Below are positions 2,234-31,919 of a DNA stretch of 64,000 bases, one piece after another. Position 1 is the first letter of the stretch. Each line of letters opens with the position of its first letter. A model generated the notes under the pieces. It saw only the letters and a program-made list of their open reading frames with translations. It made no database searches and was not told the origin of the DNA. This stretch comes from Dokdonella sp. GTDB taxonomy: Bacteria > Pseudomonadota > Gammaproteobacteria > Xanthomonadales > Rhodanobacteraceae. A program made the position numbers and the translations under genes. The stretch covers positions 1-64,000 of the forward strand of contig JAHCAR010000004.1 of the NCBI GenBank assembly GCA_019634795.1. Direction: 5' to 3'.

Positions 2234-2284
2234 TTCCCGAACGCAACGCGCCAATGGCAGCGCGTGCAATATCCGGAGAATCCG

Positions 2285-4720
2285 ATGCGAAACATCCTTG
2301 CTATTCTGGTTGCCTTCTCGGCAGGCCTGTTGGCCGCTGCCCGCCCGGCTCATGCCCTCGACTACTGCGTGAACAGCGTCTCGGATCTGCGCAGCAAACT
2401 GGCACTGCTTCAGTTTTCTGCGGGAAATCATACGATCCGGCTCGTCCAGAACCTTGACTACGACCTCGGTACAACAGGTCTGACCTACACGCCGAATCAT
2501 GCCGGAAGTCTGTCGCTGCTCGGAGGCTACACCGCCGGTTGCGCGCAGCGCACGATCAACCCGTCGAACACCCGTCTTCAGGGGCACGGTCGATATGACA
2601 CCTCGATCCGACTGACCTTGCCTGGCGGCGGTTTGATCGAGGGAATCCAATTCACAGGGCTCAACGGCCCATCATACCGTGGAGGGCTGCAATTCCTGCG
2701 CGCCAGCTCGGACCAGGCTTATCGGACCCTGGTGTTCCGGCACAATATCGTCAACGGAGTCGTTGGGCATACTGCATTCAAAGCCGGCTACGGCTGGCGG
2801 TGGTACGGCGAACTTCGGCTCGAGAACAATTTGTTCCAGGGCAATCAGGCAATATTTGCCGCATCTGTCGCCAACTCGGGCAATGCGGGTTCGAAGCTGG
2901 TACTGGCCCACAACACCGTGTACGGCAGTGGTTCGTCGGACAACGCAATGGGCGGATTGTTTCTGGAGGCGGCGGGCAGTCCCTCGCCGCCAGTGGCGTT
3001 CCAGAACAACATCCTCTGGGCGAACGCAGGTGTCGATCTCGTCGTCGCCGCGGGAACGTCCGTCTTCAGCGATCACAACGTGATCGGCACGATCAGCGGA
3101 TCGACGACCCTCGGCAGCACGACGATCAGCGCTGACCCGATGTTCGTGAGCCCGGCGGCAGGAAACCTGAGGCTGCAGAGCACCTCGCCAGCCATCAATT
3201 TCGGCACCAACTCGGTTGCTGGCGGACTCTGGGCCTACGACCTCGACCGGAACTCGCGACTTGTTGGAACGCGACCCGATGCGGGCGCCTACGAATCCGC
3301 CGTCGATGATTCGGGGCTGCAAGTCGTAACGACCACGGCCGATAGCGGAGCGGGTTCGCTGCGCCAAGCCATCATCAACGCCAACCTCAGCCCGGTGGCT
3401 ACCCGCATCAAGTTCGATATCTCGACGATTTGCCCTCGAGTGATCACCCTCGGCTCGCCCCTTCCTGATATCGCCAAGGATGTGTTCCTCGACGGGTACT
3501 CGGAATACGGCAGCATGCCGAACACATCGGAGCTCGCCTTCAATGCAAAACTATGTGTGGCCGTGCGGGGCAATACGACCAATCAACCGACGCATGCCCT
3601 GCGCGTCTCGCAGAACAGTGGTCGCCTGCGCGTCTCAGGGATCGCCTTTGGCAATTTTTCGGGGTCGGCCATCGATCTACCGGCAGGTTCCAATCACCAG
3701 ATACGCGGCAGTCAGTTCGGTGGTTCCCTGGCGGGAAGCGGCTTGCAGCTCGGCGCCTTCGGCTTGGATGCGGTATCGATCGGTCCGGGAGGCAGTGGCA
3801 CCGTCGTAGGCGGCTCGGACCTTGCGGCGCGCAACGTCGTGGGCGGCAGTGCAGCGAGCGGAATCGGCGTAACCGGAGGTGCGGCGCCGCAGATTCGCAA
3901 CAACCTGATCGGGCTCGATGCCGACGGTTCGACCCCCGCCCCGAACCTCTACGGTGTCTGGTTGCGCGGTCAGAACGCCCTGGTGGCGGGCAACGTGATC
4001 AGCGGAAACAACATCGCCGGCATAGTCATAGGAAGCAACCAGATGCCTGTCGCATCAGGGAATTCCGTCACTGGAAACAGGATCGGTACCTATCCGAATG
4101 GCACGGGCGGCATCGGAAACGGTACCGGTAGCGGCATCGCGATCACCTTTGGCGCCACGCAGAATACGGTAGGTGGACTCGCGTACGGATCCAACAGCAT
4201 CGCCTTTCACAAGGGGCCCGGGGTATTCCTCAATGGGGCCGGATACGCGAACCGCATCCAGGGCAATTCGATTCGCGACAACGATCGCTCCTTGTCGGGA
4301 TATCCGTCAATCATCTTCGGATACACGCCGACGCCGAATGATCCGGGAGATTCAGACGATGGATCCAACCGGCAGCAGAATTTTCCGGAGCTCCTCGTCG
4401 CCAGGCTGAGTGGGCAGCAATTGCATGTCGAGGGTGACCTCGACGCCGAGGACGACGTCTATATCGTCGAGATCTATGCTGCGGAGAGGGCTGCATTTGG
4501 CAATAATCGCGGTGAGCTGGGCGAGCGCATAGGGTATCTATACCTGACAGTCGCAGGCGGACCGAAGCACTTTTCAGGAGATTTCACGGTCGGAACGTTG
4601 CCTGGTCAACTGCTCACGGCAATTGCCATCCGCAACAACGGCGATACCTCGGAGCCTGGGCCGGTGATCCAGGTCGAGCCCGACAATGATCGGATCTTCA
4701 GCGATGATTTCGAACTCTAG
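2285..4720 (+). CDS. Exported right-handed beta-helix protein with C-terminal FxxxFE tail
   Basis: 811 aa. A Sec signal peptide (MRNILAILVAFSAGLLAAA..AHA) starts at ATG 2285, preferred over an in-frame start at 2264 because it begins the signal directly and follows GGAGA. The body is rich in Asn/Gly beta-helix rungs (NNLFQGN, HNTVYGSG, GNVISGN). RPDAGAYE near residue 340 resembles choice-of-anchor Q proteins, and GSLRQAIINAN near residue 360 is the CSLREA-type element seen before a second helix domain. The protein ends IFSDDFEL, a variant of the tail shared by other exported proteins here. It is paralogous in architecture to the protein at 22583-25072. It is likely a surface or secreted protein; the substrate is unknown. 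Confidence 0.85.
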   Translation: MRNILAILVAFSAGLLAAARPAHALDYCVNSVSDLRSKLALLQFSAGNHTIRLVQNLDYDLGTTGLTYTPNHAGSLSLLGGYTAGCAQRTINPSNTRLQGHGRYDTSIRLTLPGGGLIEGIQFTGLNGPSYRGGLQFLRASSDQAYRTLVFRHNIVNGVVGHTAFKAGYGWRWYGELRLENNLFQGNQAIFAASVANSGNAGSKLVLAHNTVYGSGSSDNAMGGLFLEAAGSPSPPVAFQNNILWANAGVDLVVAAGTSVFSDHNVIGTISGSTTLGSTTISADPMFVSPAAGNLRLQSTSPAINFGTNSVAGGLWAYDLDRNSRLVGTRPDAGAYESAVDDSGLQVVTTTADSGAGSLRQAIINANLSPVATRIKFDISTICPRVITLGSPLPDIAKDVFLDGYSEYGSMPNTSELAFNAKLCVAVRGNTTNQPTHALRVSQNSGRLRVSGIAFGNFSGSAIDLPAGSNHQIRGSQFGGSLAGSGLQLGAFGLDAVSIGPGGSGTVVGGSDLAARNVVGGSAASGIGVTGGAAPQIRNNLIGLDADGSTPAPNLYGVWLRGQNALVAGNVISGNNIAGIVIGSNQMPVASGNSVTGNRIGTYPNGTGGIGNGTGSGIAITFGATQNTVGGLAYGSNSIAFHKGPGVFLNGAGYANRIQGNSIRDNDRSLSGYPSIIFGYTPTPNDPGDSDDGSNRQQNFPELLVARLSGQQLHVEGDLDAEDDVYIVEIYAAERAAFGNNRGELGERIGYLYLTVAGGPKHFSGDFTVGTLPGQLLTAIAIRNNGDTSEPGPVIQVEPDNDRIFSDDFEL

Positions 4721-4763
4721 CCACCGGGATCCGGGGCATCGAGAACAGCGATTTCCAAGCGCG

Positions 4764-5150
4764 ATGGATGCGATAGAGCTGCTGATGTTGAGACGCCGGC
4801 TGGGGCGCTCGCTGGGTGCACGCGACGCAGCAGGTCTGGCAAATCTGCTCGCCGAGCAGGCGTGCGTCGAGCTGGATGGACGGCGTTGGCGCGGCCGCGA
4901 GGAAGTCATTGGCGCACTTCTTCTCGGTCCCGTGCCTGCTTACGTCCCCGACGCCCGCGCACCGCTCAAGGTGAGCTCGGGCGTCCTGACCTTCAGCGAA
5001 TCCTGGTGGCGGCGCGATCGTGTCGTGAATTGCGAGATTGCGTTTGCGAGCTCGCGGGGGCCCTGGCTACTGATCGGAATCGTCGAGGGGATCCCCGAGT
5101 CACGGTCTGCTGCCGGTCGCGGCCCATGTTGCGGGGAACCAGAGGCATGA
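4764..5150 (+). CDS. NTF2/SnoaL-like small protein
   Basis: 128 aa from ATG 4764; a longer in-frame start at 4686 would overlap the preceding gene and add unlikely sequence. The pattern MDAIELLMLRRRLGRSL, then DAAGLANLLAEQACVELDG and a Trp-rich strand (SESWWRRDR) fits the NTF2-like/SnoaL-like fold used by small enzymes and polyketide cyclases. No catalytic residues can be assigned. The stop overlaps the start of the downstream acetyltransferase (ATGA at 5147-5150), so the two are probably translated together. Confidence 0.6.
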   Translation: MDAIELLMLRRRLGRSLGARDAAGLANLLAEQACVELDGRRWRGREEVIGALLLGPVPAYVPDARAPLKVSSGVLTFSESWWRRDRVVNCEIAFASSRGPWLLIGIVEGIPESRSAAGRGPCCGEPEA

Positions 5151-5818
5151 ACGAAACGAAGCTTGCGGTACCCAACTTGCGCGTCGCGCGGCCGGCAGAC
5201 GCACACGCATTGAGTGCTCTGATGCGCAGCACATTCATGGCGGCGAATGGGCACTGCACGACGGCGGAAAACCTGGCCAAGTTCCTTGACGCTTGCTACA
5301 CACCGGAAATCCAGCTCAGGGAGATCAGGGATCCCGGCGTTCACACGGTGCTCGTGGAGGAGCGCACGGGCTTGCGAGGCTACGCGCAGTTGCGCTGGAC
5401 CACTGCAGCACCCCGCGAATTCGGGGAGGTTGCGGTAGAGCTCGGGCGAATCTACCTGATTCCGAAAGTTCAACGTAGTGGGATCGGAAGCGAGCTCATG
5501 CAGTATCTGCTGAGGCAGGCGAGAGTGGGTGGAGCTTCACTGGTCTGGTTGAATGTCTGGCAGGAATCCGCAGGTGCGATCGCCTTTTATCGCAAGCACG
5601 GATTCCAGATCGTCGGGGAAACCCTGTTCGAGGTCGGCAATGAATCCAAGGAAGACTGGCTGATGACGCGCTCGCTCGGAGACGAGTCGCCGGCGTCGAG
5701 CGGCTGTCGTGAAAAATTTCGGACGGAACCTTCTTCTGACGGTAGCGGACAAGCCCACGTAGATTCGCTCGACGATCGCACCGGCGATTCAGCTACGGGC
5801 CGTCGAATCCGTCGCTGA
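5147..5818 (+). CDS. GNAT family N-acetyltransferase
   Basis: 223 aa. The start is ATG 5147, sharing ATGA with the preceding stop. Residues ~8-175 fit the GNAT fold: motif A contains the acetyl-CoA loop QRSGIGSELM, followed by motif B with NVWQESAGAIAFYRKHGF. The acceptor is unknown. The last ~45 residues after the GNAT core (rich in Ser, Gly and Arg) look like non-domain extension, and the 3' end overlaps the convergent gene at 5793-7073 by 26 bases. The true product could have arisen by loss of an earlier stop. Confidence 0.8.
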   Translation: MNETKLAVPNLRVARPADAHALSALMRSTFMAANGHCTTAENLAKFLDACYTPEIQLREIRDPGVHTVLVEERTGLRGYAQLRWTTAAPREFGEVAVELGRIYLIPKVQRSGIGSELMQYLLRQARVGGASLVWLNVWQESAGAIAFYRKHGFQIVGETLFEVGNESKEDWLMTRSLGDESPASSGCREKFRTEPSSDGSGQAHVDSLDDRTGDSATGRRIRR

Positions 5819-7073
5819 AGATCGCATCACCATCGGCATAGGCGACGAAAACGCCGCTGCCCCATTCGACCTGGGTGTCGCCATCCGGATGCAGGGCGCC
5901 GATAAAGGCGATGTCACCCTGGTCGTTGATGCCTGGCGCGCCGCTGAAGATCGGCCACGAATCCGGATTGTCGATGTGCTGGCCGATGCGGCCGGGGCCG
6001 AGATCGGTCATGACCGGATCCTCCTTGCCGATCACGCGCACGAGGGTCGTGCCGTCGCCGGCATACAGGGCCTGGCCATTGGCATCGCGGGCCCGGAACA
6101 CGACCAGGCCGGCCGCGTTCATGGCCGGTGCGAACGATTCGATGTTACGGATCGTGCCGGTGGGCTCGACGCGCGCGATCTCGATTGCATCGACGCCACC
6201 TCCGTTCGGCGCGAAACGGTAGACCGCACGCACGTTGCCGGCATCGAGGTTGAGCACTACCGCGACCTGCCCGGCATTGTTGTAGGCAAGTCCGTTGTCG
6301 AAACGCCGGTACGGCGAAGCCGCATTCGTCGCAGTATCGACCGCCAGCGTCGTGTAGCTGCCGTCGCTGGCGAAGCTGCGGATCTCGTTGTGGTCGACGT
6401 CGCCGATACTGACCTTGCAGGCGATCAGGCGACTTTCATTCATCGCCGGCGTATAGATGAACGCATACGGTCCCGGCTGCACGTTGGCATCGACGATATG
6501 CAGCAGCGAAGTGCCGGCCCCGGTCGAGGCCAGGCCATAGCCCGAGCCCAGGCCCGCCCGGTAACCGATGACGCCGGCGTCGCTGATCACATGCCCGCTG
6601 AACGATACCGGAGTCAAAGGCAGGGTATTGACGATGGCCGACTGCATCGTTCCAGGATCGTAGCGCCGCAGGCGATAGCTGCTGCCGTCCTCGTAGGTGT
6701 AATAGACAACTTCGCCACCGCCATTGATGCTGACCCGGTCGGAAATGCCGTCGACCGGCGGCTCATGCAGGGCGACGATGCCACCCACGCCGTGCGCCCC
6801 GACCCATAGCCCGACTCCGGTATTCGACTGGCTGCCGTTGATCGGCACGATCTGCACCGGAAACGCGACCGTGCGGTCGTTGTTGATGCTCGCGGAAATA
6901 CTGTTGAACGACGAACCCGGCGGCAGGTTCCAGCCGTTGTCGTTGACCAGCAGGTTGGTGCGCGCCTGCAGTTCGAAATTGGAATAGTTCGGGACTTGGG
7001 CATGAGCCGAACTCGATGCAAGTCCGTTGATGCCCAACCCGAATGCCATGGCGGCGAATACAGTTTTCTTCAT
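5793..7073 (-). CDS. Exported NxxGxxAF-repeat protein with IFSDGFD tail
   Basis: 426 aa. ATG 7073 begins a signal peptide (MKKTVFAAMAFGLGINGLA..AHA); ten further in-frame residues upstream are less likely. The body carries repeats of the NxxGxxAF type (INDQGDIAF, MNAAGLVVF, YNNAGQVAV), a beta-propeller-like family annotated in many bacteria as a tandem-repeat protein of unknown function. The protein ends AIFSDGFDGP, the tail shared by other exported proteins here. It is divergent from the gene at 7252. Its role is probably outside the cell. Confidence 0.8.
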   Translation of the reverse strand: MKKTVFAAMAFGLGINGLASSSAHAQVPNYSNFELQARTNLLVNDNGWNLPPGSSFNSISASINNDRTVAFPVQIVPINGSQSNTGVGLWVGAHGVGGIVALHEPPVDGISDRVSINGGGEVVYYTYEDGSSYRLRRYDPGTMQSAIVNTLPLTPVSFSGHVISDAGVIGYRAGLGSGYGLASTGAGTSLLHIVDANVQPGPYAFIYTPAMNESRLIACKVSIGDVDHNEIRSFASDGSYTTLAVDTATNAASPYRRFDNGLAYNNAGQVAVVLNLDAGNVRAVYRFAPNGGGVDAIEIARVEPTGTIRNIESFAPAMNAAGLVVFRARDANGQALYAGDGTTLVRVIGKEDPVMTDLGPGRIGQHIDNPDSWPIFSGAPGINDQGDIAFIGALHPDGDTQVEWGSGVFVAYADGDAIFSDGFDGP

Positions 7074-7251
7074 TGGTATTTCCAATGCCAGACGTTTACC
7101 CACCTTTGCCTATTTTCGGCAATATCGCAACGACCCTCTATCCAATAATCATGACTGAAATCATTCGGACAGAGCGTGCGCGAGTCGGTTGAATATATAC
7201 TCTTGGATCCCCATACCCACGCCCCGGATTTCGCGGCAATCCTGCACAAGT
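7074..7251. promoter_or_regulatory. Divergent promoter region between two exported-protein genes
   Basis: 178 bases, visibly more AT-rich than the surroundings. It holds a -10-like TATACT at 7196-7201 facing the gene at 7252, although no good -35 is seen. It also has the small inverted repeat ATGA-CTGAAA-TCAT around 7151-7164. It presumably drives both exported-protein genes. Confidence 0.4.
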
Positions 7252-9486
7252 ATGAAAACTTCGATTCGTACGTTGGTCTTCGTCACAGCATTCATGTTCT
7301 CTTGGGCAGGTTGCTTCGCAACTGAGCCGTCGCCAAAAGCGCTGCAGCCCACACCAGATCTCCATCTCGCCCTTGCCGGAAAGATATACGCGGTTCTCGT
7401 GCAGGCGGATGAGGGCGTGATCATCGGTGGCGAGTTTTCGTCCGTGAACGGCGTCCAGCGAAAAAACCTGGCCCGTATCGGGCCTGATGGATTTCTCGAC
7501 GCGAATTGGCGCGCCGATACGGACGGCACCATCTACGTCCTCAGCGCAGATGGCCTCGGAAATGTCTACGTGGGTGGCGCATACCTGAACATCCAGGGCC
7601 AAGCCCGATTCGGGATCGCAAGGATCGCAACGAATGGGCAGGTCGATCCGGTCTGGGCACCGGCGCAATCGAACGGTGGCTACGAAACGGTGCTTGCGAT
7701 CGCATTCACGCCGAGCTTCGATGCGGCATACCTCGGCGGCGAATTTGCAGCGATAGGAAATCCCGCGCAGTCATATCTTTCAAAGGTTTCCACGAGTGGC
7801 AGCGGCGCAATCGACTCAGGCTGGAACGCCGCTGCGGACGGCCCGATCCATGCGCTGGCGGTCGATTCGACTGGATTCGTCTACGCAGGTGGCTATTTCC
7901 AGAACATCGGCGGAGTTCAGCGGTTGAACCTTGCGCGGCTCGCCGCAACCACTGGAATTGCGGATCCAGGTTGGAGTGCGGACGCAGATGGCGTCGTCCA
8001 TTCGTTGCTCGTCGAAGTTTCAGGCCGGTTGTACGTAGGCGGAGAATTTCAACATATCGGTTCGCAACAAACGGGCGGAATTGCGAGGTTACTTGGCGGG
8101 GGTGTCGTCGACGATTTTTGGTATCCACCAATCGGAACAATCAGCTACGTACTGGCGATGTCCCAATCCGCCTCCGGCGATCTGTTCGTCGGCGGAAGCT
8201 TCAGCCCTCTCGGAGCACCTCCCTATGGAAATCTGGCCAAGGTCCGGACGACGGGAGTGGACGATGGCGCTATCGACTGGACGTGGTTGCCGTCGTCGAA
8301 CAATTTCGTCTACGCGCTGGATGCCACTCAAGGTGAAAAAATCGCCATTGGTGGTCTGTTCACGACCATGAGCGAAGTTCAGTCCCTGGGTTTCGCGCAG
8401 TCAGATGCGCTGGGTGTGATCGGCTCCGCCATCGATGCTGAAAAGCCTGGCAAGGTCTCTTCGATGGCAGTCCAGCCGGACGGTGGATTTATCGTGGGTG
8501 GTGAATTCCTCAAGGGCGGTGGATTGCAACGCAGGAACCTCCTGCGAGTCATGCCGAACGGCAACGTCGATCCCGACTGGAATCCTTCGCCAAACGGAAT
8601 CGTTGATCGAGTCATTGTCGACAGAGACGTCGATGTCTACGCGGCAGGTCGATTCACGTCCGTGTCTGGCGTGCAACGCTCTCGCCTCGCCAAGATTGGC
8701 GCAGGCGGCATCGGAACCGTTGATTCGACTTGGCCCAGCGTGCAGGGTGGTTACGTCTATGCCATGTTGCTCGCCGACGATGGCTCGCTGTACGTCGGCG
8801 GCAGCTTTCTCGGGATCGGCGGGATTGCTAAGCACTTTTTCGGCAGGATTCGTTCGGACGGATCGGTCGATCAGGCCTGGAATCCACCCCAGGATCGGTA
8901 CATTACCGGGCTGGCACAAACCCATCCAGGATTCATTGCAGCGTCAACGTTCCTGCAAAGTTTCCCGATCAACCTCGGCGACGTGAAGCGGGTATCCACC
9001 GAAGATGGCAGCGTAGCGCGCACCTGGACTCTCGATAGAGCCGCGAATGGCATCAGGTCCGATGGCCAGTTGCTCTACGTCTACGGTGATCTCGGGAGTA
9101 TCGATGGAACGCCGGTTTCCAAGATCGGCCGGATCGCTGTGGACGGCAACGTGGATAGTGGTTGGATGCCGCAGTTCAATGGTGGCTATATCTACGGCAT
9201 GGATATTGGAGCGGACAGTTCGGTGTTCCTCGCGGGGACCATGTACCTTGAGCCGGATCTCCATCGCGTTCTCCGGATTCCGGCGGGCACCAGTCAATTC
9301 GACACATCATGGGACATCGCGACCGACAGCGAGGTGTTCGGACTTTCTCAAGTCGGCGACGATTCGCTGCTCGTGGCCGGAACGTTCACGGTGGTCGACG
9401 GGGAGGCAAGGGCCGGATTCGCCAAGGTCGGCCCTTCCGACAACATTTTCTCGAGTGGATTCGAGTCGCCGCCGCCGAGCCCCTGA
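7252..9486 (+). CDS. Exported delta-60-repeat beta-propeller protein with IFSSGFE tail
   Basis: 744 aa. ATG 7252 begins a signal peptide (MKTSIRTLVFVTAFMFSWA) ending near CFA; an in-frame start at 7189 would put 21 non-hydrophobic residues in front. About a dozen ~55-residue repeats follow, with consensus D..W.P..DG.VY.L....G.VYVGG.F..I.G..R..LARI, typical of delta-60 repeat propellers. The C-terminus is NIFSSGFESPPPSP. The protein is likely surface-located or secreted. No enzymatic motif is seen. Confidence 0.85.
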   Translation: MKTSIRTLVFVTAFMFSWAGCFATEPSPKALQPTPDLHLALAGKIYAVLVQADEGVIIGGEFSSVNGVQRKNLARIGPDGFLDANWRADTDGTIYVLSADGLGNVYVGGAYLNIQGQARFGIARIATNGQVDPVWAPAQSNGGYETVLAIAFTPSFDAAYLGGEFAAIGNPAQSYLSKVSTSGSGAIDSGWNAAADGPIHALAVDSTGFVYAGGYFQNIGGVQRLNLARLAATTGIADPGWSADADGVVHSLLVEVSGRLYVGGEFQHIGSQQTGGIARLLGGGVVDDFWYPPIGTISYVLAMSQSASGDLFVGGSFSPLGAPPYGNLAKVRTTGVDDGAIDWTWLPSSNNFVYALDATQGEKIAIGGLFTTMSEVQSLGFAQSDALGVIGSAIDAEKPGKVSSMAVQPDGGFIVGGEFLKGGGLQRRNLLRVMPNGNVDPDWNPSPNGIVDRVIVDRDVDVYAAGRFTSVSGVQRSRLAKIGAGGIGTVDSTWPSVQGGYVYAMLLADDGSLYVGGSFLGIGGIAKHFFGRIRSDGSVDQAWNPPQDRYITGLAQTHPGFIAASTFLQSFPINLGDVKRVSTEDGSVARTWTLDRAANGIRSDGQLLYVYGDLGSIDGTPVSKIGRIAVDGNVDSGWMPQFNGGYIYGMDIGADSSVFLAGTMYLEPDLHRVLRIPAGTSQFDTSWDIATDSEVFGLSQVGDDSLLVAGTFTVVDGEARAGFAKVGPSDNIFSSGFESPPPSP

Positions 9487-9547
9487 CCGCGATCCATCCG
9501 GCACGCATCGATCGTGCTACTCGATACTGGCCGTCTCAGGGCAGGTA

Positions 9548-10543: not shown

Positions 10544-10677
10544 GTCGGTTGCTTCCGGTGCAAGGCGATGCGGGCCGAGATGATTTCCGCTGCAGGGATT
10601 GTTGCTGCAATCGCCACTTGCGCGCGCCCGCAACTACGGCCGGGCGGCACGAGTCGCCGCCCGAAACCTGATGCGCA

Positions 10678-10703
10678 ACCCGCCGCCCGGAAGCGGGCGG
10701 CGG
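10678..10703 (-). terminator. GC-rich hairpin downstream of the M13 peptidase gene
   Basis: Perfect 11-bp stem CCCGCCGCCCG/CGGGCGGCGGG with a 4-base loop, 14 bases beyond the M13 stop codon on the minus strand. There is no long T-run, so it may act as a weak terminator or a 3'-end stabiliser. A second 8-bp inverted repeat (CGGGCGGC/GCCGCCCG) follows at 10640-10662. Confidence 0.55.
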
Positions 10704-10716
10704 GCTGGAACGCATG

Positions 10717-13652: not shown

Positions 13653-13662
13653 GGGCGTCGAT

Positions 13663-19842: not shown

Positions 19843-22332
19843 TCAATCGAACCCGTCTTTGAACAGGACGTCGGTCGTGCCGAAGATCTCGCCGTAGATC
19901 GCCAGGCCGCCATTGGTGGCACCGGCGAGTTGCGTGGCCACGAAACTTCCGAGCACCGCGCCATCGTCGATCGAGACCCGGACCACACGGTTGCTGCCGA
20001 TGCCGGCGGTCCAGAACGAGAGCCCGTCTGGATCCAGATTCATCGCGAACAATCCGCTCGGATCGGTCTCCCCGAGCGACAGGCGGGAGTAACTCATGAT
20101 CGTCGCTCCCGTTGCGGAGAGCCTGAATACGGCGTTCTCGCAGGCAACCAGGTACTCGCCGTTGGGGCGGCGACGCAGCGCATAGCAGCGTGAGTCCGGC
20201 AGTGTCGCCAGGTCCTCCAGCACCGAGCGCGTGCAGACATCGAAGCGGCGGATCGTGGCGTCTTCGGAGGTGTAGTGCAGCGTGCATTGGTCGGCATCGA
20301 GGTCGATCCAGTCCGTGCCGCGGGGTCCGGTCGGGATCACGAACGTGTCGATCCGCCGACCCAGCGGATCGAGCTTGACGACCGGCACCGCCGCATCCAG
20401 CGAGGGCGGACTGATCAGCCCCGCGTGGCCGACGTAGAGGTTGCCGGAGCGGTCCTGCACGCAGGACTCGGCGAACAGGCCCGCGGAAACGCCGCCGTAG
20501 GCCCCATCGAGCAATGCGCCGTTGCGCGAGAATCGGGCCAGTCCCGGTGTGGTTGCCGGACCGCCGGTATCGAAACGTGTCGCGATGACATCGCCGTTCG
20601 ACTTGAAGCACATGCCCGTTGTCGCCAGTGGCGCGGCCTGATCGAATGGCCAGGCGTCGATGAATTGCCCGTCGCTGGTGTAGCGATGGATCTTTCCCGC
20701 TCCTGCGAGCAGGACGAATCGCGTTCCCGGCGACAGGTCGTCGGTCTTGATCGTGATCGGCTTGCGTGGTGCGCCGAAGCCGCGCGTGGCGACACCGATG
20801 AAATTCGCCTTCGCGAATTGCATCGAAAAATCTTCATCCGCTTCGACATCGAGATCGCCGTTGATGATGACCGGAACCAGCGCCTCGGTCTGGCCTGGGG
20901 CGAAGTCCAGGGCCGGGGTCAGGTTGGCCTGGTAGTCGGGCGATACACCGCTGTTGGTGGCCGTGCCGGGGAAGTATGACTGCACCTTGACCCGGGTCGT
21001 GAACGGCGCCGGTTCCGAGAGGCGCACGGGAACCTGCACGGTCGTCGGCCCCGAATCGCCTTCGATGAACTCGACCGGGTCGAGCATCAGCGTCGGCGCG
21101 ACGATCACGTTCAATGCCGTTGCGCTGAACTCTGGCGCGAGCTGGCGGAGCGTGTTGACGCTCACGGATCCGATCGATGTGGGAACCGGGGCGATCGCGT
21201 AGTCGATCAAGGGAAAGCTGTCGCCCAGGGACGGAACGAGGCCCGCGGCGAACCTGACCTCGATGCGGCCGATGGATTCATTGATCGAACTGATCTGGGT
21301 ACCGACGACGAGATGGTCGCGCTGGTTGCCGGCCGGGCCCCCGATGTCGAAAGCCACGCTGCCGAACAGGCTCAACCCGCCGCTGATCGCCAGCGAGGCG
21401 TAGGGTGCGCCGGCTGTCGAGCCGATCTCGATGCGCGCTTCGTCGGCGACGCCCAGACTGCCGTTGATCGTTCCGCTCGCCCGCACGACCACCCAGTTGG
21501 GCACCGCGAGCTGCCGCGCCGGTCCGCCCAGGTCCAGCGACACGGCGTCCAGTTCGACGATCAGGGGCTCTGCCGGGGTTCCCGAACCTGCCCTGTTGAG
21601 TCCGAGACTCGCGAAATCGCCGAAAACCAGCGTGGTCTGGGTCGCGCGCAGGAGCCCGGCATCGTGTTCGATTTCGAGACGGTTGCCGGAATTGAAGCCG
21701 TGGAAACCGACGCTGCCGGTACCCTGGACGTCGAAGGTGCCGAAATTCACGAAGCGTGCCTGCGTACCGGTGGCGACGGTGTCTCTGAGGAACTCGGCGC
21801 TTCCAATGACCGTGAAAACCGCGCCGGCTGCGTTCGTGATCACCGTGCCGCCGCCCAGTGTCAGGCTGTTGCCGCTCGGCGCGGCCATGCTCCAGCTTCC
21901 CCGGTTCTCGATCGTGATGAATTTCTCGATGCGGGTCGGTGCCGTCAAGGTCGTGACAGCCGTTGCCGCAAGCACCACGGACCAGGAGAAGCCGACCTGG
22001 CCGAGCGTTCCCCCGGCCAACCTCAGCGCCGAAGTGACGGTGAGCTCGGGCAGGAATCCGCTCTCGTTCTCCAGGCGCGATCCGGCATTGAGCTCAAGCT
22101 CGTCGACCGTGCCGGCATCTCGCAGCCTCGCCGTCCCCGAATCGAGCCGCGCGACGTCGCCTGGCCCTGGAGTTCCGGCCGGAACTCCGCTGCCCGCTGC
22201 ACAGCCGCTCCAGTTGGCCGGTTCGTTCCAGGCACCGTCGGCCAGGGTCCAGACGCAGGTCGCGGCCCGCGACTCGCCAACGACCATGGCCAGGGAAACA
22301 AGCAGACCGATTGCGGTCCTGTGAATGTTCAT
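19843..22332 (-). CDS. Exported Calx-beta/propeller protein with LFKDGFD tail
   Basis: 829 aa from ATG 22332; the upstream in-frame part lacks signal character. A signal peptide (MNIHRTAIGLLVSLAMVVG) is followed by a WTLADGAWNEPANWSG segment typical of secreted beta-solenoid proteins. A long Ser/Thr/Gly-rich solenoid follows, then a Calx-beta-like domain (FIEGDSGPTTVQVPVRLSEP..DVEADEDFSMQF) and a C-terminal propeller region (HRYTSDGQF, RFSRNGALLDGAYG, RFDVCTRSVLED). It ends TDVLFKDGFD, one of the shared tails. It lies head to head with the beta-helix protein at 22583. Confidence 0.82.
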   Translation of the reverse strand: MNIHRTAIGLLVSLAMVVGESRAATCVWTLADGAWNEPANWSGCAAGSGVPAGTPGPGDVARLDSGTARLRDAGTVDELELNAGSRLENESGFLPELTVTSALRLAGGTLGQVGFSWSVVLAATAVTTLTAPTRIEKFITIENRGSWSMAAPSGNSLTLGGGTVITNAAGAVFTVIGSAEFLRDTVATGTQARFVNFGTFDVQGTGSVGFHGFNSGNRLEIEHDAGLLRATQTTLVFGDFASLGLNRAGSGTPAEPLIVELDAVSLDLGGPARQLAVPNWVVVRASGTINGSLGVADEARIEIGSTAGAPYASLAISGGLSLFGSVAFDIGGPAGNQRDHLVVGTQISSINESIGRIEVRFAAGLVPSLGDSFPLIDYAIAPVPTSIGSVSVNTLRQLAPEFSATALNVIVAPTLMLDPVEFIEGDSGPTTVQVPVRLSEPAPFTTRVKVQSYFPGTATNSGVSPDYQANLTPALDFAPGQTEALVPVIINGDLDVEADEDFSMQFAKANFIGVATRGFGAPRKPITIKTDDLSPGTRFVLLAGAGKIHRYTSDGQFIDAWPFDQAAPLATTGMCFKSNGDVIATRFDTGGPATTPGLARFSRNGALLDGAYGGVSAGLFAESCVQDRSGNLYVGHAGLISPPSLDAAVPVVKLDPLGRRIDTFVIPTGPRGTDWIDLDADQCTLHYTSEDATIRRFDVCTRSVLEDLATLPDSRCYALRRRPNGEYLVACENAVFRLSATGATIMSYSRLSLGETDPSGLFAMNLDPDGLSFWTAGIGSNRVVRVSIDDGAVLGSFVATQLAGATNGGLAIYGEIFGTTDVLFKDGFD

Positions 22333-22582
22333 CGTGTCGGGGCCTCCGCCCGGGCCTCCACGCGCGAATCGCGCGGCATCCAAGCCCATGCTCGCCTTCT
22401 GAACGACGAAGTGCCGCGATTCCGAACGCAGCCGCACTCCGTTGCGGTGCCGGAACCCATCCGCATCTTCCTGGGGAGTGCCTTCGAGCGCATCCGGCGG
22501 CGGAAATCACCCGACTGCGTTCGGTTCTCCCCTGCAGCGTCATTCCACTCGAGAAGGGGCCGTCGCTCCGGGGAGTTGCGTC

Positions 22583-25072
22583 ATGCTTTCATCGAAATGG
22601 CTGTATTACCTTGCCGTATCGACACTGCTGCTGTCGGCATCGGTCGTCCATGGCGCGCAGATCATCTGCGTTGACAGTGCCTCCGGGCTCGACAGCGCCC
22701 TGGGTTTCGCCGAAGTGGCTGATGTACGGATCAATCTCGTGCAGGGCAGCTACGACACCCGTATTACCCGGTTGAATCAGGATTTCGGGAGCTTTCCGTT
22801 CGATGCGGAGGGATCGATCACGATCGTCGGCGGATACAACGCGAACTGCACGTCGCGCAGTGCGAACCCTGCACTCACCGTGCTCTTCGGCGATGCCGAC
22901 ACCGACATCCTGATCCGGAACGGAATCGACGTGGAGTTCGAGTCCGTGACCTTCGAGAGCCTGCGCTACATGTCGATCGATGCCAACCAGTTCGGCTCGC
23001 CTGCAGAGCACAGCCTGCGCATGACCCGGGTTATGGCCCGCAATATGGGGCCGATCTCGGTCATTGCGAGCGAAGTTTCGCTCAACCAGGTCGCGATTAC
23101 CGGAAGCATCCCGTTGCCGCCACCGGCCAACAACTGCGCGTTCCTGGCCTTCGCCTTCGATCTCGACGTCGTGAAGGTGGAGAGTTCCCTTTTTGCGGAC
23201 AATGGCGGCGATGGCCTGTGCGTCGGCCACGATCCGGGTCGTGGCTGGGGCAATGCGTTCGTCTACAACTCGATCTTCTGGGGCAACGCCGGATACGATA
23301 TCGTCTCGGTCACCGACGAGAGCAGCTCGGACATCCTGCTGCGTGCGAACCTGCTGCAGACCACCAACATCGTTCCTGCACCGACTTCCCCGCCGTCGGG
23401 GACCCTGACGGCGAATCCGCAATTCGTCGATGCGGCCGGCGGTGACTACCGGCTCGGCGATTTTTCCCCGGCAAAGGACTCCGGCTACATACTTCCACCG
23501 AGCGGGCTACCCTCGATCGACATCCAGGGGTTGCCTCGCATCATCGGCGCAGGACTGGATCGTGGCCCGTTCGAAAACCAGGCGATCCCGACCCAGTTCA
23601 TCTACACCGTCACCAACACCAACAATTCCGGTTCGGGCTCGCTGCGCCAGGCGTTGATCAACGCCGAATCCGCAGGGGGTCTGAACGGCATCACGTTCAA
23701 CATTCCGGGAAGCGGCTGTCCGAAAGTGATCGCCTTGCAGAGCGAATTGCCGCCGATCACCCAGCCGCTCGTCATCCAGGGCTATTCGCAACCCGGCGCC
23801 ATCGGCAACAACAGCGAAAGCTCGTTCAACGCGAGCCTGTGCGTCGTGCTCGAAGACGCCGGGAGCGTATCGCGTGGACTGGTTATCGACGACACGGCAC
23901 CGCCGGATGCATCGGTCACCATCGAAGGCCTCGGATTCAATGGATTCGCGACGGCCGCCATCGACGTGCGCGGCGGCGGTGATCACCACATCCAGGGCAA
24001 CCAGTTCGCGGGCAGCGTCGGCGCGGTCACGCTCGACAACGGCAACTACGCGATCCGCGTCAGCCGGCTCGCCGCACCGGTGCTGTCCGGGACCCAGATC
24101 GGCGGCGACGAACCTGGCCAGCGCAACCTGATCGGCAGCGCGGCATTCGGGATCCTTCTCAATGGCGGCTTCGTGCGGGACACGCTGATCACCAACAACT
24201 TCATCGGCGTGGCCGCCAACGGCAGCAGCGCGCTGCCGAACAACTACGGCATCAGCAACACGGGCGCGCTCGACACCACGGTCAGGGGCAACTGGATATC
24301 GGGCAACGCCGTCGATGGCGTGTACGTCAACGGAACGGGAACCTATCTGACCGGCAATCGCATCGGCTTGCGTGCCGATACCAGCGGCGGCTCGAGCCTG
24401 CCGAACGGCGGCTGGGGCGTGCGCATCACCCACGCCGGCTCGGGTCTGCCTTCGTTGAATCTGGTCGGCAGCGGAATCGGCTATCTGAACGGCGTTCCGA
24501 TCCCGATCGGCGCCGGCAACACGATTGCCAACAACATTGCCGGTGGCATTCGCACGGACAGCGGCCTTGGTCATCGATTGAGCCGCAACCTCGTCTATGC
24601 CAACGGCCGACCCGAGATCGACATCGCCGAGGTCGGATTCACGTTCAACGACAACGACGGCGATGCCGCCGCTGCGACGCTGAGCAATCGTGGAATCAAC
24701 TATCCGCAGTTCGACGGCTTCCCGCGCGGCGGCCCGACTCAAGGCACGGTGGCTGGCACGCTGCAGTCGATCAACGGCGACTATCGCGTCGAGGTGTACT
24801 CCGCGCCGGCCTGCAACGGTGGCGGCCTCGCCACGGGCGAATCCCGCGTCTATCACGGCGCGAAAACGGTCTCGATCCGCAATGCGCCAAGCGGCCAAAA
24901 CGGCTCGGCCAGTTTCGGCATGCCGGTCAGCGCTTCTGCAGGGGCAGCGAACCTGATCGACCGCGGCTTCGTCATGCTGGCGATCGACCAGGATGGCAAC
25001 ACCTCGGAACTGTCGCTGTGCCTGCCCTACCAGTCGAACGACGTCATCTTCGCGAATGGCTTCGAGCCGTGA
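22583..25072 (+). CDS. Exported right-handed beta-helix protein with IFANGFE tail
   Basis: 829 aa from ATG 22583 with GGGGAG just upstream. Signal peptide MLSSKWLYYLAVSTLLLSAS is followed by a first beta-helix (VYNSIFWGN, NLVYANGRP rungs). The choice-of-anchor-Q-like block LPRIIGAGLDRGPFE follows, then GSGSLRQALINAES and a second helix with ITNNFIGVAANGSS repeats. The C-terminus is DVIFANGFEP. Domain order, the SLRQA block and the early C..SG segment match the protein at 2285-4720, so the two are paralogues. A large exported surface protein is likely. Confidence 0.85.
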   Translation: MLSSKWLYYLAVSTLLLSASVVHGAQIICVDSASGLDSALGFAEVADVRINLVQGSYDTRITRLNQDFGSFPFDAEGSITIVGGYNANCTSRSANPALTVLFGDADTDILIRNGIDVEFESVTFESLRYMSIDANQFGSPAEHSLRMTRVMARNMGPISVIASEVSLNQVAITGSIPLPPPANNCAFLAFAFDLDVVKVESSLFADNGGDGLCVGHDPGRGWGNAFVYNSIFWGNAGYDIVSVTDESSSDILLRANLLQTTNIVPAPTSPPSGTLTANPQFVDAAGGDYRLGDFSPAKDSGYILPPSGLPSIDIQGLPRIIGAGLDRGPFENQAIPTQFIYTVTNTNNSGSGSLRQALINAESAGGLNGITFNIPGSGCPKVIALQSELPPITQPLVIQGYSQPGAIGNNSESSFNASLCVVLEDAGSVSRGLVIDDTAPPDASVTIEGLGFNGFATAAIDVRGGGDHHIQGNQFAGSVGAVTLDNGNYAIRVSRLAAPVLSGTQIGGDEPGQRNLIGSAAFGILLNGGFVRDTLITNNFIGVAANGSSALPNNYGISNTGALDTTVRGNWISGNAVDGVYVNGTGTYLTGNRIGLRADTSGGSSLPNGGWGVRITHAGSGLPSLNLVGSGIGYLNGVPIPIGAGNTIANNIAGGIRTDSGLGHRLSRNLVYANGRPEIDIAEVGFTFNDNDGDAAAATLSNRGINYPQFDGFPRGGPTQGTVAGTLQSINGDYRVEVYSAPACNGGGLATGESRVYHGAKTVSIRNAPSGQNGSASFGMPVSASAGAANLIDRGFVMLAIDQDGNTSELSLCLPYQSNDVIFANGFEP

Positions 25073-25230
25073 ACTCTGCCCGGCACTGCCCGACGCGCCG
25101 ACGCCTCCCGTGCCGGCGGAGCCGGCCCGGGTTGGCAAGCAAAGTCAGCATGGCCGGTTCGGCAGCAGATGCGAATGGGGCCTGTTTCCCGCGCTACACT
25201 TGTGTTCGAATCGGGTACAGGTCGGCGACC

Positions 25231-25771
25231 ATGGTCGAGGATTCGCATTCCGAGCACACCACGGCCTGGTTGCTCGATCGCATACGGGAAGGGGACGACC
25301 GGGCCCGCGTCGATCTCGTCACACGGATCGAACCGCTGTTGCGCCGGTTTGCGCGCGGCCGCCTGCCGGTGCGACTGCGCGGCCAGCAGGACACGGCCGA
25401 CCTGATCCAGCTGACCTGGCTCAAGGTCCTCGACAGACTCGAAGCCATCAAGGTCGACGAACCGGGCGCATTCTTCGCTTACCTGCGCACCGTGCTCGTC
25501 AATGCCCTGCGCGAATCCCTGCGCCGCCAGGCACGCTCGCCGATCCTGCCCGATGCCGGGATCGAACTGGTGGCCAATGATGTTGACCTCGATGACTGGC
25601 TGGCCTGGGAGCAGTCGCTGGCGGCGTTGTCGCCGGAACAGCGGAGTCTCGTCCTGATGCGCTTCGAGTTCGGCATGAGCTTTCTCGAGATGGCCCGCGA
25701 GCTCGGCCAGAGCCCGGATGGCGTGCGCATGAAGGTCAACCGCGTGATTGCGCGCATGGCCGGACAGTCCG

Positions 25772-25782
<11 letters not shown>
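25231..25782 (+). CDS. ECF-type RNA polymerase sigma factor
   Basis: 183 aa from ATG 25231. Region 2 is ARVDLVTRIEPLLRRFARG..DTADLIQLTWLKVLDRL with FFAYLRTVLVNALRESLRRQ, and region 4 is LAALSPEQRSLVLMRFEFGM..REL..SPDGVRMKVNRVIARM. No anti-sigma gene follows. Instead the stop overlaps the start of a Ser/Thr kinase gene by 11 bases. That layout matches ECF groups paired with STPKs, in which phosphorylation of the sigma factor replaces anti-sigma release (known for the ECF43-like group; membership here is inferred). Targets are unknown. Confidence 0.88.
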
Positions 25783-28531
<2,749 letters not shown>

Positions 28532-28559
28532 CCCTGACCGTGCGTGCCGTTGCCATGCA

Positions 28560-29116
28560 CTAGTCGGCGGCCCGCTCGACGCAGCCCTGATCGAGGAAAA
28601 GCAGTTTCCAGCCTGCCTGCAGGGCGCGGACATCGAACGGAAACGGCAGCTTGTTGCCCTTTGTCGGAGCGCTGACTGCGGCCAGGCTCATCAGGTAGGC
28701 ATACAACGCTGAAACATCCTCGTCGCTCGATTCGGTGACGTGGTCGGACAGGAACGCCGGGTAAAGTTGAGTGCCGTCGTGGGCGATGCCTTCACGCATG
28801 GCGTTTACGAGCACTGCCTCGGACCAGTTGCCGAAGCCGGTGGCCGGATCGGGCGTTATGTTAGTCGAATTGCTCGTGCCGAACCCCGTCTTCAACGGAT
28901 AGCTGCCGGCATTGCGCGCACCGCGCTCGGCCGTGCGACAGGTGGCGCAGGAACCGGCACTGGCGAGCATTTCGCCGCGCTGCAGCTGGCTCGCCTCGAA
29001 CGTCTTGGCGGCCGGCACTTCGATCGGATCCAGCGCCGGGTGCCAGGCCAGGACGAAGACCCGGCGATGTCGATGACCTCCAGGGTCAGCGGGAACACAA
29101 TCACGCGTTTGAACAT
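28560..29116 (-). pseudogene. Broken cytochrome c (alcohol dehydrogenase-type c subunit fragment)
   Basis: The start ATG 29116 (GGAGG upstream, MFKRVIVF, membrane anchor) is out of frame with the rest. One base is missing from the GGG run at ~29060-29062; the next frame gives VFVLAWHPALDPIEVPAAKTF, then NSTNITPDPATGFGNWS and YPAFLSDH, typical of multiheme c subunits of membrane dehydrogenases. The heme site reads CATCRT instead of CxxCH: codon 28935-28937 is Arg where His is required. The reading frame then ends after WKLLFLDQG, where relatives continue with further heme domains. It is almost certainly non-functional unless there is a sequencing error, which the Arg and the truncation make less likely. 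Confidence 0.85.
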
Positions 29117-29514
29117 GGGCGGCCTCCACGTTGCGTGAATTGCGGCGCCAACAACCGGGCAGCCATCCGGCGCCGGTGCGGGACCTACTCATCCGACTGC
29201 GGCTCGGCGGGCGGCGAATTCGCAACAGACCGATGGTCCGTACGCAGTGGTCAGAGGTGCTCGCTCAAATCGCTGGGGGAATGCGTCGTAGCTGCGGAAA
29301 TGGACACAGACGTGCGCAGCCGGCTTCCGTTCGGGACTGCCCCCTACGCAAAAGTGGCGGTGTGCAAATTGTCGATGTGGCTTCTCGAACGGATCATGCG
29401 CAAATTTCTCTGCAGGCGAGCAATCAGGCGCGCATTCGCGTTGGGCGTAGGCGCCCAAGTCAAAGGGATCTTGCGGATACCACGACGATCGTGCCGCTTG
29501 TCCAGAGCCCCTCC
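29117..29514. other. Intergenic stretch, 400 bases, no gene seen
   Basis: No convincing ORF was found. A small inverted repeat TTGGGCG-TAGG-CGCCCAA lies at 29441-29458, without a clear T-run. It separates the broken cytochrome gene from the end of the exported propeller gene. Confidence 0.5.
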
Positions 29515-31005
29515 CTAGTCGAAACCGCTAGCGAAGATGCTCGGTTCGCGCCCGTCGGCATCGATCAGGCGTGCAACGCCGAAAGTGGGAAATGCGAGCG
29601 GATTTGAACCACGGGTATTGCCGGCATAGTAGAGGAATCCGGCCGGATCCAGCGTGATCGCCCGGCCGAAATCCGAATAGCCGAGCGAAGGCGCCGCCGC
29701 GTAAGTTCCCAGGCCAATTCCGCCTGATCCGTAGCTGGAGTCCTCCATGCTCGTCGGCAGCAGACGCATGCTGAAGAAGTAGGTGCCGTTTCCGTCGATT
29801 CGGTCCACCGTTGCCGCCAGCACGATCTTGCCGTTCGGCTGAATCAGCAGGTCGCCTGGCTGTTCGTTCGGGCCGACGCTGACCAGGTCCTCGGCCTCGA
29901 TGAGCAGGAAGCCGCCGCCGATCCCGGGGATCGTATTGAAGCTGCTGTCCGGGTTGCCGTCCGGAAGAAACCGAGTGACGTACAGGTCGCGGTCGCCTTC
30001 GAAAACGTCCTCGGTGCTTCCGAGCACGACCGCACGATCCGAGGCGTCGATGGCAAGTCCTCCTGCGATCGCCCGCAGGGTGGAATCCACCGATGTTTCG
30101 CCTCCCGCACCAAACGTCGTGTCGAGGCTTCCCATGGCGGTAAACCGGTATACGGTATTGAAGGTTTCCGTGCTGTCGAACTGATACTGGTTGCAAACCA
30201 CAAGGATCCGGCCCTGGCTGTCGATCTCGATATCGACGGCGTTGCTGTTGCGATCGACATAGTCGACGCGCACCGTTCCATCGATACCAAACGTCGAATC
30301 CGGGTTGAGGTCCTGTCCAAGGCGCGTGAGGAACAGGGACAATCGGCCGTTGGTCCGGCGAACCGAACCGGCCGCAACGGTCCGGTTCTGGTCGTCGGCG
30401 ACGACGGCCTGGAAGCGACTGTCGTCGAGTTCGTTGACCGCCGGTGCCCTGATAAACAGGCCCTCCAGGGAATCTCCCCGTGGACTGAATCGGGCCAGGC
30501 TTGCGCGATAGGTTCCGCCGGATTCGAGCTCGGCGGCAATCAGCAGGCGGCCGGTGGTATCCGTTGCCGAGTCGAAGGCGGTATAGCGTTCGCCGGGAAG
30601 TTGCGGTCGAAGTTCGGTCATCGCGACCATGCCGGGTCCCGTGTCTGCGGGTACGGGACCATAGTCGGTGGGCACTCCGTCCACGGAGAGTTCCGCCGCG
30701 CAGAGGGTTCCCACGATGGACCCTGTCGTCGAGAATCCGTCGCATCGCCCGGCCAGCAGTACGCTTCGATCCGTGCGCAAGTGCACTCCTACGAGCTTGT
30801 GCAGTCCCGAAACGAGGACTGGCCGTCGTCCTCCCGAAGCGAAGCCCGGGTCATAGAAGCCGTCGGTCGCGGGCGCAGGTCCGCAGGCCAGCAACAGGGC
30901 TGCACCGAGCACCAGTAGTACGGCCTGGCGCGGAAGGTACCTGGGCCGCCGGTGTTCGGCGGGTTCGCCGCGCATTGCCTCCCCGATTCGATGCGTTCCG
31001 CTCAC
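29515..31005 (-). CDS. Exported delta-60-repeat protein with IFASGFD tail
   Basis: 496 aa from GTG 31005, which overlaps the stop of the upstream gene (GTGA at 31002-31005), or 486 aa from ATG 30975. A hydrophobic signal follows (RQAVLLVLGAALLLACGPAPA), with LLAC resembling a lipobox, so it may be a lipoprotein. The body has delta-60-type repeats (GFYDPGFASGG, NPDSTFGIDGTVRVDY, SLDTTFGAGGETSVD, PDSSFNTIPG). It ends PSIFASGFD, the shared tail. The frame overlap suggests coupled translation with the propeller protein upstream. Confidence 0.82.
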   Translation of the reverse strand: MSGTHRIGEAMRGEPAEHRRPRYLPRQAVLLVLGAALLLACGPAPATDGFYDPGFASGGRRPVLVSGLHKLVGVHLRTDRSVLLAGRCDGFSTTGSIVGTLCAAELSVDGVPTDYGPVPADTGPGMVAMTELRPQLPGERYTAFDSATDTTGRLLIAAELESGGTYRASLARFSPRGDSLEGLFIRAPAVNELDDSRFQAVVADDQNRTVAAGSVRRTNGRLSLFLTRLGQDLNPDSTFGIDGTVRVDYVDRNSNAVDIEIDSQGRILVVCNQYQFDSTETFNTVYRFTAMGSLDTTFGAGGETSVDSTLRAIAGGLAIDASDRAVVLGSTEDVFEGDRDLYVTRFLPDGNPDSSFNTIPGIGGGFLLIEAEDLVSVGPNEQPGDLLIQPNGKIVLAATVDRIDGNGTYFFSMRLLPTSMEDSSYGSGGIGLGTYAAAPSLGYSDFGRAITLDPAGFLYYAGNTRGSNPLAFPTFGVARLIDADGREPSIFASGFD

Positions 31006-31919
31006 GGCTCGCTTTCCTCGAACTCGCTGTGGAAGATCCGGTCATCCTCGAACATCGCTTCACCACTGATGAACTGCAGGCCGGGCAAGGCCACAGACGC
31101 GATCAATGTCTGCGCATCCGCGAGGTTTCCGGTTTCCGAGTAGTCGAGCAGAACCACGCGCGCATCGGATACGCAACAACGTGTGCCGATGGCATGGCCG
31201 GATCCGTCGGCATTGAGCGACAGGTAGTTTTCGCTGGCACTGTCATCGCGCTGGCTGTCGATGACGGTCGGAGCAGCCGGATCGACCATGCGAACCCGGC
31301 CGAAACCGGCAACCAGGATCCTTTGCGTGTACGGGTCCCAACCGAGGCCGGTGGCGAAAGCGGAGGTTTGCAGGCGCGTCGTTTGTCCCACGTCGAAATC
31401 GATACGGCCAAAATGACCGATGATGGATTCGGTGCCGGTCGAATAGAAGCTCTCGCCCGACGGCGTGAAGACAATGTCGGTCAGATTCAGGTCGCCGCCC
31501 GTCAGCGCGACCGGCGTGCCGTTCCCGAAGGGTTGCAGGGGAACCCCGTGCAAGGTCGAGGACCAACCGCAGTAAAGGAGTGACCCGGACAGGTCGGGCG
31601 CGCATACGTTGGCGTTGTTGAAGGTTTGCGCGAGGCTGACCTGGCCCGTGCGCAGGTCGATGCGGCTGACGACGCCGGAACCGGTGACGTAGACCAGGAA
31701 CTCGGAGACAACGATGCCTCCGCCGGCCCCTGCCGTGGCGACCAGCTCGGGCTCCGAAGCCGTCAGGGTTCCCTGACCGTCCCAGTCGATGGCGACCCTG
31801 TAGAGTTGCTCGGTCTGCAGTTCGGCCACATAGATGCGGGTGCTCAGCGGTGTCCCGGCGTTGGCGGCTCCGATCGAGAAGCCGACGACGCTCGCAGCGG
31901 CAATTGTCCATGTGCGCAT
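31002..31919 (-). CDS. Exported beta-propeller protein with FxxxFEE tail
   Basis: 305 aa from ATG 31919. Signal peptide MRTWTIAAASVVGFSIGAANA is followed by blade-like repeats (YRVAIDWDG, SRIDLRTGQVSL, DIVFTPSGESFYST, GRVRMVDPAAP). A Cys pair (TRCCVS) is present. The C-terminus is DDRIFHSEFEESEP, a degenerate form of the shared tail. It is first of two coupled genes and divergent from the winged-helix/TPR regulator starting at ~32022-32067. Confidence 0.78.
   Translation of the reverse strand: MRTWTIAAASVVGFSIGAANAGTPLSTRIYVAELQTEQLYRVAIDWDGQGTLTASEPELVATAGAGGGIVVSEFLVYVTGSGVVSRIDLRTGQVSLAQTFNNANVCAPDLSGSLLYCGWSSTLHGVPLQPFGNGTPVALTGGDLNLTDIVFTPSGESFYSTGTESIIGHFGRIDFDVGQTTRLQTSAFATGLGWDPYTQRILVAGFGRVRMVDPAAPTVIDSQRDDSASENYLSLNADGSGHAIGTRCCVSDARVVLLDYSETGNLADAQTLIASVALPGLQFISGEAMFEDDRIFHSEFEESEP

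Follow-up and report, generated by a model that had tools for sequence, protein, structure and literature searches.

A short tag on exported proteins of Dokdonella and its relatives that tracks type II secretion with a classical GspC

In the type IX secretion system of Bacteroidota, a C-terminal domain (the Por signal), folded and of ∼80 residues, directs many proteins to one secretion system. Here we describe a tag that is likewise shared by many exported proteins but is a nine-residue peptide rather than a folded domain and occurs in Gammaproteobacteria. It lies in a 64,000-nucleotide stretch of Dokdonella sp. (herein the window; contig JAHCAR010000004.1, positions 1 to 64,000), for which a preliminary description had listed seven signal-peptide proteins of unrelated fold that end in a common FxxGF[DE]-type tail. 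The GlyGly-CTERM/rhombosortase system of Vibrio, Shewanella, and Acinetobacter is similar in its short C-terminal tag, its many-to-one relation, and its link to cargo of the type II secretion system (T2SS; PMC13393428 and PMC3237569, in excerpt), and its cargo families (M36 peptidases and rhombotarget A) are matched by tagged proteins. The GlyGly-CTERM tag, however, joins a motif to a membrane helix and a basic cluster and is cut by a rhomboid protease, whereas the present tag has neither C-terminal helix nor basic residues, is also found at N termini, and coexists with a rhombosortase above cut-off in 0 of 34 tag-rich genomes. PEP-CTERM/exosortase and IPTL-CTERM share with it a patchy distribution, many carriers per genome, and a weak exosortase association; unlike PEP-CTERM, the present tag is without a helix or basic end, and an exosortase is matched in 17 of the 34 tag-rich genomes rather than in every carrier. 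Cargo families of MYXO-CTERM/myxosortase (MXAN_5453 and M36) are also matched by tagged proteins, but the MYXO-CTERM tag has an invariant cysteine (PMC11980579, in excerpt) and the 82 tails described here have no conserved cysteine or helix. Among T2SS determinants, loop 3 of PelI is a flexible exposed peptide that touches GspC and GspD (PMC7949064, in excerpt), and the Ig-fold of VesB is a graftable, PDZ-dependent secretion signal (PMC12369372, in excerpt); these serve single proteins, whereas the present linear motif is common to 82 proteins of one genome. From sequence comparison, and with a rough probability of 0.6, we propose that the motif serves as a linear docking tag, addressing exported proteins to a classical T2SS with GspC.

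The genome that holds the window (3.87 Mb, 85% complete; herein the own genome) was searched with the pattern [ILM]F..[GDE]F[DE], with the reversed pattern as control; its DNA gives 97 forward and 4 reversed matches. In the DNA fetched around the matches, 82 of 98 motif instances end an open reading frame (ORF) of at least 60 residues and lie no more than 22 residues from the stop. The consensus of these 82 tails is [DE]-x-[IL]-F-x-[DNS]-G-F-[DE]-x(0-15)-end, with a nine-residue core. Both phenylalanines and the choices at motif positions one, five, and seven were set by the search pattern, and the preferences there (position one, I in 63 and L in 19 tails; position five, G in 77; position seven, D in 47 and E in 35) are not independent evidence. 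The tag is conserved outside these fixed positions too, since the residue two before the motif is D in 67 tails and E in 6 and the fourth motif residue is D, N, or S in 72; the third is A in 44. The suffix behind the tag has 0 to 15 residues and is rich in Pro, Ala, and Ser, and no membrane helix, basic end, or conserved cysteine was found in the 82 tails. By a simple hydropathy score for signal peptides, applied in place of a trained predictor to 220 ORFs of at least 150 residues in DNA that was chosen around tagged genes, 45 of 45 complete tagged ORFs score as signal-peptide proteins compared with 56 of 175 untagged ones; 63 of 65 tagged ORFs of at least 60 residues with complete 5′ ends do so as well. 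Shuffling of the last 40 residues of the 45 tagged ORFs gives an expectation of 0.023 tails, and the reversed motif ends 0 of the 220 ORFs. The genomic frequency, on which the preliminary description had made its claim depend, is thus far above chance; a chance origin is excluded, and the tail is real and genome-wide. Homology clustering places some of the carriers together as paralogs, as a functionless C-terminal module spread by common descent would have it; that account is barely conceivable given that fixed spacing is conserved over 82 proteins with very divergent bodies, and that the tag underwent the concerted switch described below while homologous bodies persist.

Counts of the tag in this Gly-Phe (GF) form across 299 genomes of the order split into a high and a low set. 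High counts are found in the own genus (56 to 97), g12 (105 to 188), g2 (41 and 43), and g14 (72); 68 genomes from the remaining genera of the own family have 0 to 11, with controls of 0 to 5, and reversed-pattern controls over the whole order range from 0 to 16. A sample of 275 genomes of the class included four of this order; as read from the listing, no genome from elsewhere in the class is more than 14 above its control, and within the class a single order is above background. A stricter pattern that includes the stop identified at least 115 stretches in named genomes. The names in the 80 of these listed with names are Dokdonella, Tahibacter, Pseudofulvimonas, Chiayiivirga, Marinicella, Wenzhouxiangella, metagenome-assembled genomes of Lysobacterales, and a few others; among the matches listed, 108 of 115 stretches hold a tagged ORF of at least 60 residues, and the 7 that do not include records from Roseibium, Pyrinomonadaceae, Bacteroidetes, and Melainabacteria. 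A description of the tag was found neither in protein-family libraries nor in listings of papers about C-terminal sorting and about the organisms concerned, and the 18 papers that match motif strings do so as letter runs, none of them, judged from the listing, on a bacterial protein tail. The tag is new to the libraries and literature examined, and its distribution ties it to the classical T2SS.

Where the preliminary description had looked to a co-occurring receptor or protease gene, the best-correlated partner found was the T2SS with a classical GspC rather than a sortase-like protease. GspC (PF11356) is matched in 34 of 34 tag-rich genomes, picked by hand from the 299-genome count, versus 8 of 45 tag-poor ones. 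Over all 299 genomes, PF11356 has 116 strong matches (E 1e-13 or better) and 13 weak ones. With a tagged genome defined by at least 10 net matches to the GF form or to an Arg-Phe (RF) form counted in 69 of the 299 genomes only, 101 genomes have both tag and GspC, 167 have neither, 16 have the tag only, and 15 have only a strong GspC match. By genus majority, the numbers are 34 with both, 44 with neither, 3 with the tag only, and 3 with GspC only; five of these six discordant genera belong to family f8 and the sixth is g16 (G224). Genera with both occur alongside genera with neither in each of the families f1, f2, and f9, and the match therefore does not reduce to a single split. In the own genome, gspC, gspD, and gspE were confirmed, and the C terminus of gspC matches PDZ-bearing families. 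The carriers score as having Sec or twin-arginine (Tat) signal peptides, and T2SS genes are present in the genome, with exceptions in the wider set. Correlative as this is, a tie between the tag and T2SS export is likely. GspK (PF03934), tried as a control, was matched in 77 of 79 genomes as well as in Gram-positive controls and was uninformative. At the gspC locus, the site upstream of the gene is conserved and no adaptor gene was found there in 20 loci; in 9 to 11 of them, the cluster adjoins what we take, by eye, to be rho, trxA, and rhlB.

In one clade, the genus g31, the tag has changed from GF to RF on unrelated proteins. GspC is present in g31 and GF tails are few, and the choice-of-anchor B protein of G009 in this genus ends AEIFGDRFEP. 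Of 27 g31 genomes searched with [ILM]F..RF[DE], 23 have at least 12 matches; G138 has 39, and 41 other genomes have 0 to 12. The low g31 genomes are G088, G182, G196, and G204 (3 to 11), and G044 has 14 matches against 10 for its control. G037 has 84 RF matches and a control of 2. In DNA fetched around RF matches of this genome, 20 extra regions included, 43 instances were found, of which 33 are C-terminal and 33 of 33 read RF; 18 of 22 complete RF ORFs score as signal-peptide proteins. The six GF matches of G037 were fetched and checked later, and none looks like the tag: five are internal or far from the stop, and the sixth, 13 residues from the stop, lacks the flanking acid and is in what looks like an antisense frame. 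For 13 of the 33 tagged G037 ORFs of at least 100 residues, homologous bodies occur elsewhere, and of their best matches 12 end GF and one DF. Such a joint change on unrelated proteins is expected if they share a reader, and the tag is very probably read in trans.

The candidate reader is the PDZ domain of GspC. VesB secretion requires the EpsC PDZ domain (PMC12369372), the 9-residue loop of PelI is a secretion signal through its contacts with GspC and GspD (PMC7949064), and in Xanthomonas XpsC a helix replaces PDZ in that region (PMC11981180); these papers, each in excerpt, make this part of GspC a candidate site for cargo docking. We aligned GspC from 31 GF genomes, 22 genomes of the RF clade, and the mixed G162, leaving out G113, which ends at a contig edge. 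All of these rows contain the PDZ block, as do the tagless G224, G241, and G251; the tagless G269 lacks it. Three positions of the PDZ carry acids in 22 of 22, 21 of 22, and 22 of 22 RF-clade rows versus 2, 3, and 9 of 31 GF rows, respectively, and the RF-clade PDZ is more negative than that of the 9 f10 GF rows (p = 0.005) and of the 22 others (p = 1e-7). In the part of GspC before the PDZ, no difference in charge from the f10 GF rows was seen (p = 0.18). The acidity of the PDZ fits compensation for a new arginine in the tag, and a reading of the tag by this domain may be put forward tentatively. In the proposed mechanism, an exported protein would dock through its tag on the classical T2SS at GspC, and the T2SS would then take it through the outer membrane, either to the cell surface or into the medium.

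Several observations weigh against a docking tag read by GspC. Among the 16 tag-only genomes, G042, G063, and G096 have a completeness of 96 to 98% (that of 11 others is 73 to 94%, and G094 and G234 only just pass the threshold). Samples from G063 and G096 hold convincing tails without a PF11356 match (of 10 matches in each, 4 and 5, respectively, are C-terminal, and among these L282 and L290 have the look of chance matches), and these two f8 genomes may have a divergent GspC or be true exceptions. GspC occurs without tags in G224, G251, G269, and G241, and five g31 genomes (G044, G088, G182, G196, and G204) are GspC-positive and tagless by both GF and RF. The Fisher values for co-occurrence ignore shared ancestry and, few families having been profiled, another gene could track the tag equally well or better. 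Exosortase does show a weaker association (17 of 34 tag-rich versus 8 of 45 tag-poor genomes, p = 0.003; 21 of 39 versus 4 of 40 once g31 is taken as tagged), and in family f2 it is confined to the two tagged genomes. PDZ-type GspC is known outside the order (OutC and EpsC; PMC11981180, in excerpt), yet the rest of the class is at background; because the GspC homolog XpsC is missed or weakly scored by PF11356, what correlates with the tag is classical GspC. As to the PDZ, columns that gain acids number 6 in the domain and 5 before it, those that lose acids 1 and 4, and those that gain bases 4 in each part of GspC. The RF rows represent about one genus and were assigned by clade, with G044 and G196 having few RF tags themselves, and clade drift may lie behind the acidity.

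The many-to-one pattern, the variable suffix of 0 to 15 residues, and the partial association with exosortase would suit a cleavable C-terminal signal for a sortase-like enzyme or peptidase, as in LPXTG, PEP-CTERM, and GlyGly-CTERM. Against this stand the missing membrane helix and basic cluster, the occurrence of the tag at mature N termini and internally, and the enzymes themselves: an exosortase match is missing in half of the tag-rich genomes and a rhombosortase above cut-off in all of them, and a cleavable signal is highly improbable. As a partner, exosortase was not adopted, although associated, because 17 of the 34 tag-rich genomes are without a match; it is not matched in any of the six genomes of g2, g12, and g14, the richest carriers. 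Rhombosortase, likewise rejected, is above its curated cut-off in 3 of 79 genomes, all tag-poor, with a match just under the cut-off in G149. In G224, which has GspC and no tags, a rhombosortase match (C47:22388-23331, locus L215) lies 95 bp away from that for gspC. The own genome has an exosortase-family match at G000:C2:3735-4169. At locus L179, the protein encoded by 1347-6020 has an end that we take, by eye, to be IPTL-CTERM-like, and it clusters with tagged proteins; a tagged gene (6906-8000) is in the same locus, which thus has two tail systems together.

The tagged cargo is diverse. Of the 82 tagged proteins, 79 (all but L006, L062, and the second ORF of L004, which are short or partial) were scanned against family libraries, and they match 57 NCBIfam (E 0.001) and 69 Pfam (E 0.0001) families; the names and counts that follow are from the best 25 of the 57 and the best 25 of the 69, in rows that carry no cut-offs. 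They include choice-of-anchor families Q (15), B (2), and I, rhombosortase-dependent M36 (3), myxosortase-dependent M36 (3), and rhombotarget A (3); MXAN_5453 is also matched, under its cut-off. Such families take their names from GlyGly- or MYXO-CTERM anchoring in other organisms, and the tag thus occupies the place of the known sorting tails of other lineages. A tag-like end is kept in homologs, a point on which the preliminary description had staked its claim: choice-of-anchor B proteins above cut-off have a tag-like end in 19 of 20 genomes of tagged lineages, several of these ends being degenerate, and the end in the twentieth (G086) is not determinable. The hydrophobic core flanked by acids and the β-rich nature of many carriers could also describe a structural or stability cap that closes a β-sheet edge or blocks C-terminal proteolysis and has no dedicated reader. 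Such a cap is scarcely probable for a tag that occurs at either end of many unrelated families, is near background in relatives without classical GspC, and has undergone a G-to-R switch implying a common reader.

The same family names bear on a surface-anchor tag, by which T2SS export would depend on other features and the tag would dock non-covalently to an outer-membrane or surface receptor, like the GlyGly-CTERM of Vibrio. In its favor are the matches to choice-of-anchor families and to those named for rhombosortase or myxosortase dependence, the pairing of GspC with rhombosortase in the tagless G224, and the finding that GlyGly-CTERM provides membrane association and that passage of the outer membrane needs a secondary signal (PMC13393428, in excerpt). 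Around the tagged genes, neither a partner gene nor a receptor that tracks the tag was found among the 60 largest neighborhood clusters. The only recurrent neighbors there are presumably Ser/Thr kinases, winged-helix TPR regulators, and two-component proteins, assigned by eye rather than by family search. The acidity of the RF-clade PDZ would, for an anchor, have to be coincidence. We consider a surface anchor unlikely and prefer a secretion signal over a pure anchor, and we infer that tagged proteins travel by this T2SS and that the machine reads the tag directly. T2SS cargo selection is an open question, and the tag may be the address label that the T2SS was thought to lack; the natural switch from GF to RF, together with the tracking of GspC, makes the question testable with peptides and grafts. 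If true, the proposal would allow exoproteins to be predicted by a simple rule in Dokdonella, Tahibacter, Marinicella, Wenzhouxiangella, and their relatives, and it might supply a portable handle for secretion.

The tag is not confined to C termini. It lies directly behind the signal peptide in five of six flagged proteins, namely the last protein of Table 1, L044 of the own genome, L155 of Dokdonella, L177, and L288 (G063); in the sixth, L276, an N-terminal tag is unconvincing. The subtilase-like protein of L059 in the own genome has TDRIFFDGFD in an internal stretch. N-terminal and internal tags speak against C-terminal processing and for docking. A broader proposal is more speculative than PDZ reading by itself: a position-independent linear T2SS signal for a large share of the secretome, read by the PDZ, with one clade in which the GF-to-RF code changed on both cargo and reader. 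Two subtilase-like proteins of the own genome, L018 and L059, carry the tag or a variant of it at neither end, and L012 and L036 have 88 and 56 further residues behind the tag, unlike the rest, possibly through lost stop codons.

In the window itself, all seven of the tails first listed were found where they had been placed, and each ORF scores as a signal-peptide protein (Table 1). The idea of a sorting signal on unrelated exported proteins is supported and, with the T2SS as probable partner, sharpened. The folds do differ, although among five groups and not seven: 2285-4720 shares a homology cluster with 22583-25072, and a delta-60/DUF5122 propeller is encoded by 7252-9486 as well as by 29515-31005. 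Nor was the list complete, as an eighth tagged protein with an N-terminal tag (40200-41882) had been overlooked.

Table 1. Tagged proteins of the window and positions of their tags
Protein	Coordinates	Strand	Tag	Tag position
Exported β-helix/choice-of-anchor Q protein	2285..4720	+	IFSDDFE (end IFSDDFEL)	4694-4714
Exported NxxGxxAF/MXAN_5453-like protein	5793..7073	-	IFSDGFD	5802-5822
Exported delta-60/DUF5122 propeller	7252..9486	+	IFSSGFE	9445-9465
Exported protein, weak Calx-beta match	19843..22332	-	LFKDGFD	19846-19866
Exported β-helix protein, same homology cluster as 2285-4720	22583..25072	+	IFANGFE	25046-25066
Exported delta-60 propeller	29515..31005	-	IFASGFD	29518-29538
Exported protein, without family match	31002..31919	-	IFHSEFE	31017-31037
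Signal-peptide protein, Tat-like	40200..41882	-	LFQDGFD, at mature N terminus	41754-41774

The MXAN_5453-like protein matches NF045523 (8.1e-57) and TIGR05002 (5.1e-13), each under its curated cut-off, and its family is named by NCBI for a MYXO-CTERM anchor. For 29515..31005, an ATG start at 30975 gives a better signal-peptide fit. Its tail is without secondary structure in an AlphaFold model, with a predicted local distance difference test (pLDDT) score below 50; the model, from a 7-sequence alignment with a mean pLDDT of 64.6, is used for this statement only. The N-terminally tagged protein has no match among NCBIfam families, and its signal peptide is presumably of the Tat type, judged by eye from an RR motif. 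The ORF at 25748-28531 (+) adjoins tagged genes and looks to us like a Ser/Thr protein kinase; its cluster is found at 9 loci around tagged genes, the window counted in. The window also has short tandem repeats at 39855-39929 (13 bp × 5.8) and 63352-63386 (CATTCCC × 5).

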